From positions 1-43,054 of IMG/VR virus record IMGVR_UViG_3300010883_000090: a stretch of DNA of 43,054 bases; one strand, given 5' to 3'. The position numbers and the translations under genes are program-made. Positions 5,068-40,080 of the stretch are shown piece after piece. The stretch's first letter is position 1. Each line of letters starts with the position of its first letter. The notes below the pieces were generated by a model. That model saw only the letters and a list, made by a program, of their open reading frames with translations. It searched no databases and was not told where the DNA came from. The stretch is from a virus.

Positions 5068-5073
5068 CAAATC

Positions 5074-5158
5074 GTGCGGCTAGGTCGGCCAACCGAAAAG
5101 GCGTAACGTTCCACGCCCTGCCGCACTCCCCAATGGAGCGATAGCTAAGGAACGAGCT
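5074..5158 (+). ncRNA. Structured 5' leader RNA: three-way junction plus RBS hairpin
   Basis: GTGCGGC (5074-5080) pairs perfectly with GCCGCAC (5120-5126) and encloses two arms: TCGG-CCAA-CCGA (5085-5096) and GGCGT-N8-ACGCC (5100-5117). A small CTCC/GGAG hairpin follows. Then ATAGCT (5141-5146) pairs with AGCTAT (5155-5160), holding the AAGGA ribosome site in the loop and the first two bases of the ATG in the stem. I do not recognise a named RNA family. The layout suggests translational control or a protein-binding RNA. Confidence 0.55.
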
Positions 5159-38458: not shown

Positions 38459-38812
38459 ATGAGCTTTCAAGATTACTGCGAAGACAACCTAGACCTGCAA
38501 ACTGGCCTGATGAGCGCCGCTCAGATCGCAGAGGCCCGCGCATCCTTCCACGCAGTATCCGAGAAAGTCAAAGTTGAAAAGCACAAAGATGCTGGCCTTA
38601 AGCTGGCTGAGCTGATCGCCAAGGTTTCACGTCTGGCCGCAAGCCAGTCAATCGCCATCGCCAAAGCTGCCGAGCAAGGCAAGGACGCCAGCATCGCCAA
38701 ATTGTTTGTAGCACAAGCTGAGCAAGCCCTGACAGGCAAGGCAAAGAAAGCAGACCTGCTGAATCTGATTACCTTGAGCAGCGAAGCAAGCCGTTGCTTG
38801 AACGCCCAATAA
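38459..38812 (+). CDS. Candidate anti-CRISPR/anti-defence protein 1 (unknown)
   Basis: A 117-residue helical, lysine/alanine-rich protein (SFQDYCEDNLDLQTGLMSAAQIAEARASFHAVSEKVKVEKHKDAGLKLAELIAKVSRLAASQSIAIAKAAEQGKDASIAK). I recognise no family. It is the first gene behind the inverted-repeat promoter and precedes an RHH-like gene and the CRISPR-like repeats, which makes it a candidate Acr by association. The local DNA upstream is AT-rich, unlike the rest of the phage. Confidence 0.6.
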   Translation: MSFQDYCEDNLDLQTGLMSAAQIAEARASFHAVSEKVKVEKHKDAGLKLAELIAKVSRLAASQSIAIAKAAEQGKDASIAKLFVAQAEQALTGKAKKADLLNLITLSSEASRCLNAQ

Positions 38813-38827
38813 AACAGGAGCAAGACC

Positions 38828-39193
38828 ATGAGCGCAGACTGGGATGATGCTTACAACGATATAGATCCAAGCGTACCGACTATCGATACGGTTTTTCTGG
38901 GCGAAGGGCGGCATATGCCATCTGCTGCGCTGCTGCTGGAACGCGACATGGATGATGCTGTTGACGTGCTGCTGGCTCGGCAGTGCGTGGAATGGGCGGT
39001 AAAGCTGCGCGAATCAGGATTCGAAAACCAAAATGGCGGAATGTGGTTTCCGAGTAATGATGAGCTTGCGCGGTTCGGCAATGTCATTAATGCGCAGCTG
39101 AGCCGGCTCGGGGTGAGCGGTATGGGCGACAATTCTCGCGTTCGCTGGGTAAGAGTTGCGCGGCTAGCCCTGCTCGGAGACGAAGATGAATAA
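38828..39193 (+). CDS. Candidate anti-CRISPR/anti-defence protein 2 (unknown)
   Basis: A 121-residue acidic protein (MSADWDDAYNDIDPSVPTIDTVFLGEGRHMPSAALLLERDMDDAVDVLLARQCVEWAVKLRESGF, then DNSRVRWVRVARLALLGDEDE). I recognise no family. Small, acidic, in an operon with an RHH-like regulator and next to I-F-like repeats: typical of Acr proteins, though this is only context. It overlaps the third gene by 8 bp. Confidence 0.6.
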   Translation: MSADWDDAYNDIDPSVPTIDTVFLGEGRHMPSAALLLERDMDDAVDVLLARQCVEWAVKLRESGFENQNGGMWFPSNDELARFGNVINAQLSRLGVSGMGDNSRVRWVRVARLALLGDEDE

Positions 39194-39392
39194 GCTCGAC
39201 GCCGTCGCAGAGACGACAAAGACCGAGCTAAAAAAGCTAGGCCGCCCGAACGTCATTGACGGCAAGCGGCGCAATGTATTCATTGATGACGAAAGCTGGA
39301 GCAATGCGCAAAAGCTGGGCAATGGTAATGCCAGCGAGGGGATAAGGAAGGCGCTGGAACTGGCGCAAACGCTTGACAGCGCAGACCATTGA
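39186..39392 (+). CDS. RHH-like regulator, candidate Aca
   Basis: A 68-residue protein. GKRRNVFIDDESWSNAQKLGNGNASEGIRKALELAQ reads as strand-helix-helix, as in ribbon-helix-helix repressors. It ends the three-gene operon and could bind the inverted repeat at 38377-38424 or the palindrome in the next promoter. Its last codons contain the -35 box of the repeat array promoter. Aca repressors are usually HTH or RHH proteins in this position. Confidence 0.55.
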   Translation: MNKLDAVAETTKTELKKLGRPNVIDGKRRNVFIDDESWSNAQKLGNGNASEGIRKALELAQTLDSADH

Positions 39393-39402
39393 ATGGTTTT
39401 AT
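39373..39402 (+). promoter_or_regulatory. Promoter and operator of the CRISPR-like repeat array
   Basis: A perfect -35 TTGACA (39373-39378), 18-bp spacer and TTTTAT (39397-39402). Transcription would start near 39409, within the first repeat's stem. The spacer holds the perfect palindrome ACCATT-G-AATGGT (39385-39397), a good repressor operator. Confidence 0.6.
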
Positions 39403-39404
39403 CA

Positions 39405-39574
39405 ATCCACTGCTGAGCAAGCAGTTTAGTAATAGCAATGCTTGAAATACTTTCACTGCCGAGCAGGCAGCTCAGAAATGACAGCATGTGGTCTAAGCGT
39501 TAACTGCTGAATAAGCAGCTTAGAAATGACAGCGCTCTCTCTGCGCGTTAACTGCCGAACAGGCAGCGAAACGG
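39405..39574 (+). CRISPR. Racr-like array of four type I-F CRISPR-like repeats
   Basis: Four 28-nt units start at 39405, 39451, 39499 and 39547 (periods 46, 48, 48). They resemble the I-F repeat, as I recall GTTCACTGCC-n5-GGCAGC-TAAGAAA. Unit 2 is closest: TTTCACTGCC-GAGCA-GGCAG-CTCAGAAA. Every unit forms a 5-bp stem with 5-nt loop, and the closing pair alternates C-G and T-A by compensatory change. Spacers are only 18, 20 and 20 nt; the last two start TGACAGC. Unit 4 has lost the usual 5' handle. No cas genes are present. This suits an RNA anti-CRISPR that mimics repeats. Confidence 0.75.
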
Positions 39575-39596
39575 CCCGCTTAATCGCGGGCTTTTT
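39574..39596 (+). terminator. Terminator of the repeat array
   Basis: GCCCGC-N6-GCGGGC (39574-39591), then five T. It ends the array transcript and lies over the Rz stop codon, so it may also serve the convergent lysis genes. Confidence 0.8.
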
Positions 39597-40080
39597 CTTG
39601 CGCGATAGAAAGTGAATCATAAGCCGCGACACAAGCCTCCCCCGCTACTCTGCTTCTGTCAGCCTCTGCTGCCATTCTTCCCGCAACTGCATCAGCCTCG
39701 CTGAACAGCTTGGCGAGCAATAGCTTGTCGGGATCTGCCTGGCCTCGGTCGGCAGTATCGGGACACTTGGCGGGGCGACCGGCGAGCTTGTTGACTTGCT
39801 CGCGCAGGCTGTCAGCAGTAACGCCGGCAGTAGCAGCGTCAGCTTTAAGCTGTGCAATCCTTTCTTGTGCATCACGTCGTATCCCCTCGATTGCTGATTG
39901 CCTGCGCGATTCTTCGCTGCGCGCCTGGACCTGTGCTTGTGCGTAGGCCTTGTCATGCTCTGACTGGATCTGCGCTACTTCTTCGGACCAGCGCTTACCC
40001 TGGATGTACCAGGCGGAGCTGAAGCCTGATGCGATCAGGGCTAGGGCTAGGCCGGCGTAGAGGTAGAGGCGTAGGTTCAT
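39580..40080 (-). CDS. Rz: Rz-like inner-membrane spanin (DUF2514)
   Basis: A 166-residue i-spanin: N-terminal membrane anchor (LRLYLYAGLALALIASGFSSAWYI) and a long coiled coil (EEVAQIQSEHDKAYAQAQVQARSEESRRQSAIEGIRRDAQERIAQLKAD). It fits the DUF2514 Rz-like family. With Rz1 it fuses inner and outer membranes in the last lysis step. It overlaps the endolysin by 4 bp and encodes Rz1 in another frame. Confidence 0.85.
   Translation of the reverse strand: MNLRLYLYAGLALALIASGFSSAWYIQGKRWSEEVAQIQSEHDKAYAQAQVQARSEESRRQSAIEGIRRDAQERIAQLKADAATAGVTADSLREQVNKLAGRPAKCPDTADRGQADPDKLLLAKLFSEADAVAGRMAAEADRSRVAGEACVAAYDSLSIAQEKARD
39645..39872 (-). CDS. Rz1: Rz1-like outer-membrane spanin lipoprotein, nested in Rz
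   Basis: A 75-residue protein wholly inside Rz in another frame: MHKKGLHSLKLTLLLPALLLTAC gives a signal peptide with lipobox LTAC. The mature part is Pro/Ser-rich (SSPVAPPSVPILPTEARQIPTSYC). This is the classic nested spanin arrangement. The frame extends upstream, but the signal peptide fixes the start at 39872. Confidence 0.8.
   Translation of the reverse strand: MHKKGLHSLKLTLLLPALLLTACASKSTSSPVAPPSVPILPTEARQIPTSYCSPSCSARLMQLREEWQQRLTEAE

Follow-up and report, generated by a model that had tools for sequence, protein, structure and literature searches.

The window analyzed here is IMG/VR virus record IMGVR_UViG_3300010883_000090 at its whole length (43,054 nt), which carries genes for portal, terminase, integrase, endolysin, spanin, DnaB, and repressor proteins. 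Between an open reading frame (ORF) of 68 aa and the Rz spanin gene, Rfam cmscan and reading of the sequence located four mimics of the type I-F CRISPR repeat at 39405-39574, separated by gaps of 18, 20, and 20 nt. The features of this intergenic locus are given below; bit scores are those of Rfam CRISPR-DR4 (RF01317), an I-F type repeat with a cut-off of 35 bits, and the mini-crRNAs are predicted from the I-F processing rule, the ends of mini-crRNA 1 assuming Cas6f cleavage at the stem bases of units 1 and 2.

39373-39402, plus strand: candidate sigma-70 promoter, read by eye (TTGACA at 39373-39378, 18 nt, TTTTAT at 39397-39402)
39405-39432, plus strand: unit 1, I-F repeat mimic, stem CTGCT/AGCAG, weakened handle TTTAGTAA (RF01317, 22.2 bits)
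39425-39470, plus strand: predicted mini-crRNA 1, 46 nt (8-nt handle, 18-nt guide, 20-nt 3' hairpin)
39433-39450, plus strand: spacer S1, 18 nt, TAGCAATGCTTGAAATAC
39451-39478, plus strand: unit 2, I-F repeat mimic, stem CTGCC/GGCAG, handle CTCAGAAA (RF01317, 37.3 bits)
39471-39518, plus strand: predicted mini-crRNA 2, 48 nt
39479-39498, plus strand: spacer S2, 20 nt, TGACAGCATGTGGTCTAAGC
39499-39526, plus strand: unit 3, I-F repeat mimic, stem CTGCT/AGCAG, handle CTTAGAAA (RF01317, 39.9 bits)
39519-39566, plus strand: predicted mini-crRNA 3, 48 nt
39527-39546, plus strand: spacer S3, 20 nt, TGACAGCGCTCTCTCTGCGC
39547-39574, plus strand: unit 4, terminal mimic, stem CTGCC/GGCAG, 3' handle lost (RF01317, 27.0 bits at 39547-39571)
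39573-39597, plus strand: intrinsic terminator GGCCCGC-TTAATC-GCGGGCT with T tail (terminator scan, 39573-39592; fold)

Units 3 and 2 exceed the RF01317 cut-off, units 4 and 1 fall below it, and E values in the record range from 1.8e-9 to 4.9e-4. The 5-bp stem is perfect and encloses a 5-nt loop in all four units, with a closing pair that alternates between T-A (units 1 and 3) and C-G (units 2 and 4). Good 5' handles occur in units 2 and 3, a weak one in unit 1, and none in unit 4; spacers S2 and S3 share the start TGACAGC. The pair pattern was present in 3 of 399 genomes and a reversed control pattern in 0 of 399, so the pattern is not a product of chance. The anatomy proposed by the first-pass annotation is borne out, coordinates included: four 28-nt units with intact stems, a closing-pair change (CTGCC/GGCAG versus CTGCT/AGCAG), usual handles in units 2 and 3 and a lost one in unit 4, two spacers that begin alike, and spacers well short of the 32 nt of a canonical I-F mini-array. 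The array had also been said to lie in a phage without cas genes, and a search of the record for the Cas6f family found no Cas6f (Csy4) gene.

The claim that the array has its own promoter survives in part: TTGACA-18-TTTTAT is legible upstream, but a consensus promoter scan with stricter -10 rules listed none at 39373-39402, and we therefore treat it as a candidate only. A transcript from this promoter is predicted to start near 39409, at the unit 1 stem, and the predicted 192-nt RNA folds better than its shuffles (z, -2.47).

The window portal protein is 65% identical to that of Pectobacterium phage ZF40 and at most 87% identical to those of IMG/VR phages, a fragment on one 10-kb contig being 100% identical over the half that it holds. 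A Pseudomonas host, which had been suggested for this phage, is not supported, as the best portal identity among 398 Pseudomonadaceae genomes was 48%. None of the phage records contained the window array or was closely related to the window at the DNA level. Two further features of the phage may be recorded here: an int-alpA RNA (RF02996) scoring above the gathering threshold at 5073-5140, in the left part of the genome, and three small ORFs (117, 121, and 68 aa) at 38459-39392, upstream of the array, that match no Pfam or PHROG family and are candidates for accessory or anti-defense genes.

Targets of the window spacers

Exact copies of S2 and S3 occur nowhere else in 2.9 million IMG/VR viral contigs; protospacers in mobile elements, as a canonical I-F mini-array would have, were thus not found for these two spacers in IMG/VR. 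Viral mini-arrays whose spacers cut related phages do exist (PMC11656645), and two-repeat 32-nt mini-arrays were found in other phages here, but Cas2/3 is not triggered by guides of 18 to 20 nt (PMC7296934), and we find it hardly credible that the window array is such a weapon against superinfecting phages. The two-repeat 32-nt arrays (phage contigs L252-L322, which also include spacers of 36 to 38, 41, and 48 nt and, in some cases, terminators) form a separate group, possibly one devoted to inter-phage targeting.

A search of the window itself for CC protospacers matching a full seed found none. The sequence TGACAGCGC is common to S3 and to phage array L194, which is independent of the window array and adjoins a spanin gene, the two being unrelated after TGACAGCGC. 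Preceded by CT, it is also present at 39372-39382, in the -35 region of the window array itself (CTTGACAGCGC), giving a 9-nt S3 seed match; S2 has a 7-nt match in the same region. A I-F1 system is known to accept CT as a PAM (PMC7296934). The array might thus repress itself through S3, judging from this match, and mini-crRNAs could more generally guide the host Cascade to promoters other than those of cas genes, whether the array's own or others of phage or host. We consider this improbable as the function of the array: among 83 viral spacers, own-promoter targets with an NC or CT PAM were not enriched (3, versus 2.6 in shuffles), the window being among the few. The -35 box of a cas8f promoter in one genome (L385) likewise contains TGACAGCGC behind a CT PAM; since an estimated 0.1 to 0.2 such hits are expected by chance, this match is a lead only, and the window spacers have no significant match among cas8f promoters.

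Recurrence and guide lengths of short-spacer I-F arrays

The first-pass annotation held that the window array would be a notable multimeric form; it is not unique, since viral contigs and prophages contain at least 50 distinct I-F arrays with short spacers and 2 to 6 units. The search pattern, two I-F repeats 13 to 29 nt apart, was present in 47 viral contigs, in addition to prophages. Shorter spacers (<13 nt) between I-F repeats were seen in one viral contig, and wider spacing in viral contigs belonged mostly to canonical 32-nt arrays. Three or more units were present in 20 of the 50 viral and prophage arrays, the terminal handle was lost in 44 of 50, and a terminator lay within 55 nt of the array in 28 of 50, compared with 0.8 in shuffles. 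Spacers of the same viral array resemble one another at positions 1 to 5 (sharing of 0.59 versus 0.365 expected, a level reached in 0 of 2000 randomizations) and far less at positions 9 to 14. Hairpins within spacers were rejected as a distinguishing feature, being equally present in CreR.

These class-wide properties bear on the idea that the window array is a decaying fragment of a host CRISPR or CreR locus, functionless and carried by accident. Divergence of the units from each other and the missing handle of unit 4 would fit such decay; however, the four stems still pair, with compensatory changes, terminal handle loss and a downstream terminator are characteristic of the class, and short arrays recur in unrelated phages next to spanin or portal genes. 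We therefore regard decay as very unlikely.

Two further loci may be mentioned: an extreme homogeneous version with six near-identical I-F units and the same 16-nt spacer throughout (L046:675-922), and a Thauera metagenome-assembled genome (L074) that resembles neither class, with several clusters of I-F repeats irregularly spaced at 23 to 29 nt in a stretch of about 4 kb.

The lengths of viral spacers gather at 14, 18 to 21, and 24 to 26 nt, and a tally of length counts modulo 6 places 46 at 1 to 2 and 6 at 4 to 5. A Rayleigh test of periodicity was strong, but neighboring periods scored nearly as high, and we therefore rely on the class counts instead. In a published type I-F1 system, a Cascade with N Cas7f subunits corresponds to a spacer length L = 6N-4 (Tuminauskaite et al. 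2020, PMC7296934); its complexes assemble with spacers from 14 nt upward and not with 8 or 2 nt, and shortened complexes bind DNA and form R-loops, while Cas2/3 cleavage is absent below 32 nt (PMC7296934). In a study of type I-B, transcription was repressed with a 24-nt guide, which no longer supported interference or priming (PMC10989794). Lengths near 6N-4, together with the lack of Cas2/3 triggering below 32 nt, make the viral spacers fit for complete but nuclease-silent complexes; window spacer S1, at 18 nt, is off the exact 20 of this rule.

CreR-like arrays in hosts and seeds shared with phages

CreR has been named for types I-B, I-E, and V-A, and no type I-F member is named in two reviews (PMC13131331, PMC12737573); in the literature that we searched, which lay outside subscription journals, we found no description of a type I-F or a phage-encoded CreR. 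In bacterial genomes, the short-spacer I-F pattern corresponded, among the matches listed, mostly to two-unit short arrays. Among these listed matches, the chromosomal arrays had an adjacent CC-PAM site with a mean scored seed of 8.9 (2.8 in shuffles), 73% had a CC-PAM seed of at least 6, and the target typically lay about 68 nt upstream. Those whose genes were read are located between cas2/3 and cas8f and diverge from cas8f-5f-7f-6f, and their target is the cas8f promoter, as in Azonexus (L186), Pseudomonas entomophila (L191), Pseudomonas carbonaria (L192), Chromobacterium (L193), and others. From this position and target, the chromosomal two-unit arrays look like a type I-F CreR. Similar arrays are widespread, at genome loci L052-L169 and elsewhere, for example at L186:3226-3372 and upstream of cas8f in L349. 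A positional base preference common to viral and CreR spacers (+2.4 bits) was not used as proof, as canonical spacers partly show it too (+0.8).

Viral arrays do not have local CC-PAM targets of this kind (mean seed of 2.59 versus 2.69 in shuffles, none above shuffle). In three lineages, Azonexus, Pseudomonas, and Pasteurellaceae, a phage spacer copies the CreR seed of a clade-matched host. The host CreR of Azonexus sp. R2A61 is AAGTAGTTTCCAAATTAGGGCTAC, and a P2-like prophage of this genome has an array of four units whose spacers AAGTAGTTTCCGACTTAAG and AAGTAGTTACGCGAAAGC each match the CC site in the cas8f promoter; an Azonexus prophage spacer (L106) agrees with host CreR at 16 of 19 positions. 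In one Pseudomonas genome (G116), CreR is TATGAGCTATTGGCCTTGGCCTAGAAA, and three phage arrays (L005, L041, and L163, the last located in P. indoloxydans) carry spacers beginning with TATGAGCTACGC and share a 9-nt seed with it, L005 spacer 1 (TATGCGTTATTGGCTTTGGCC) being identical at 18 of 21 positions. The cas8f promoter of P. indoloxydans has a match with a CT PAM and an 8-nt seed, which provides weak support. The third case is an Aggregatibacter array (L075) whose spacer ATAGGTGTTTATTTTGGTT has 14 nt identical to CreR of one Pasteurellaceae genome and matches the promoter target of that genome except at position 6; a second spacer, ATAGTTGTTATCTTGGTG, matches the cas8f promoter of a second Pasteurellaceae genome, again except at position 6. 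In I-F targeting, a flipped-out base is expected at guide position 6. The Aggregatibacter array has five units (L075:4200-4450, minus strand) with guides that fit these two cas8f promoters, and its own genome lacks Cas6f. Separately, spacer 1 of L025 shows a 13-nt match, except at position 6, to a CC site upstream from cas8f in L409.

At least seven scored seed bases were shared in 5 of 18 clade-matched comparisons, versus 4 of 5757 others, the five matches representing three lineages and not five independent events. When viral spacers were compared with 156 cas8f upstream regions, CC seeds of at least 9 numbered 6, versus 2.05 in shuffles (p=0.02), and seeds of at least 12 numbered 2, versus 0.05. 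Viral seed matching was not significant in an early mixed pool of cas8f promoters with unmatched hosts; two Azohydromonas arrays (L109, L120) had no match in the cas8f promoter of their host, and another array (L121) was negative in the Pasteurellaceae cas8f promoter sample. Our combined results suggest that hosts have a type I-F CreR and that phages imitate it.

It is possible, although rather unlikely, that the window array is a pure decoy, in effect a multimeric Racr that sequesters Cas6f and other Csy proteins, with guide sequence irrelevant and additional units raising the dose. RacrIF1, and even non-targeting crRNA, inhibit type I-F in a dose-dependent manner (PMC10651486), and the missing CC protospacer in the window and the lack of local targets in viral arrays are consistent with such a role. 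A pure decoy, however, needs no seeds (positions 1 to 5) shared within an array, no copies of host CreR seeds, and no 6-nt length classes.

Proposed mechanism and relation to known systems

We consider it reasonably likely that the window locus acts as a multimeric RNA anti-CRISPR by giving rise to mini-Cascades that are nuclease-silent; the anatomy, recurrence, length classes, and seed copying in three relative lineages are read directly from sequence, whereas for this array we infer expression, cutting by Cas6f, loading, and any repression. Host Cas6f would cut the transcript into three mini-crRNAs of 46 to 48 nt; Cas8f-Cas5f would then load on the handle and about four Cas7f subunits on the guide, with Cas6f staying on the hairpin. 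The resulting mini-Cascade would be complete but shortened, able to bind DNA and not to trigger Cas2/3. Such silent complexes would drain Cas5f, Cas6f, Cas7f, and Cas8f, thereby acting as a decoy, and where a seed fits the host cas8f promoter, the guide would additionally repress cas expression. Several units would provide a higher dose and perhaps match more than one allele of the host promoter.

The array class probably acts beyond a decoy, also silencing cas expression, and the window array and its relatives probably serve as an RNA weapon with several shots against CRISPR immunity. More tentatively, we propose as a serious possibility that phages captured the cas8f-repressing guides of I-F hosts, cut them down to lengths at which the nuclease stays silent, and combined several alleles in a single array. 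If this is true, a single transcript could both drain Cascade subunits and shut the cas promoter in several host genotypes. The array class links two separate themes, repeat-mimic decoys and guide-directed cas autorepression.

The first-pass annotation named the array a candidate Racr. What stands of this is a cas-less array of I-F mimics on a phage, expressed by its looks and with non-canonical spacers, most likely directed against type I-F; the array is not solitary, handles are present, and spacers are non-neutral in its relatives. As with RacrIF1 and the solitary repeat units (Camara-Wilpert et al. 2023, PMC10651486), it is a non-coding I-F mimic in a phage in which no Cas6f gene was found, matching RF01317 in the interval between annotated ORFs, and it is predicted to bind host Cas6f and Cas7f. 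RacrIF1 has one repeat and no 5' handle, and only Cas6f and Cas7f load on it (PMC10651486), whereas the window has four repeats within 170 bp, where a solitary unit has none within 100 bp, and internal 5' handles (CTCAGAAA and CTTAGAAA, each upstream of the next guide) with guides of 18 to 20 nt, so that Cas5f and Cas8f could load as well. Being clustered, and with units 1 to 3 supplying a 5' handle, the window array is not a Racr by the published definition. The SRUFinder screen for solitary repeats discards repeats clustered within 100 bp (PMC10651486); the short-array class therefore lies outside that screen by design, and the window array points to an overlooked class of RNA anti-CRISPR.

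Viral CRISPR mini-arrays (PMC11656645) similarly place CRISPR repeats in viruses without cas genes, but they carry canonical-length spacers against related viruses, in contrast to the 18- to 20-nt spacers of the window, of which S2 and S3 lack an IMG/VR match. A regulatory parallel is CreR, a short mini-CRISPR encoding an RNA that is complementary to cas promoters to a limited extent (PMC13131331, PMC12737573). Phage relatives of the window array share host CreR seeds, and complementarity to a cas promoter with a PAM was found in the Azonexus, Pseudomonas, and Pasteurellaceae relatives. Unlike CreR, which adjoins the cas operon that it represses, the window array is carried by a phage far from cas genes, with a 68-aa ORF and the Rz spanin gene as neighbors, and it is multi-unit and followed by a terminator. 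Finally, the truncated-spacer I-F1 Cascades of 14, 20, and 26 nt, which assemble and bind DNA and do not trigger Cas2/3 (PMC7296934), were an engineered series studied in vitro; here, comparable lengths are natural, in phages and in host regulatory arrays, and nature appears to employ guide lengths whose nuclease silence had been seen in vitro.
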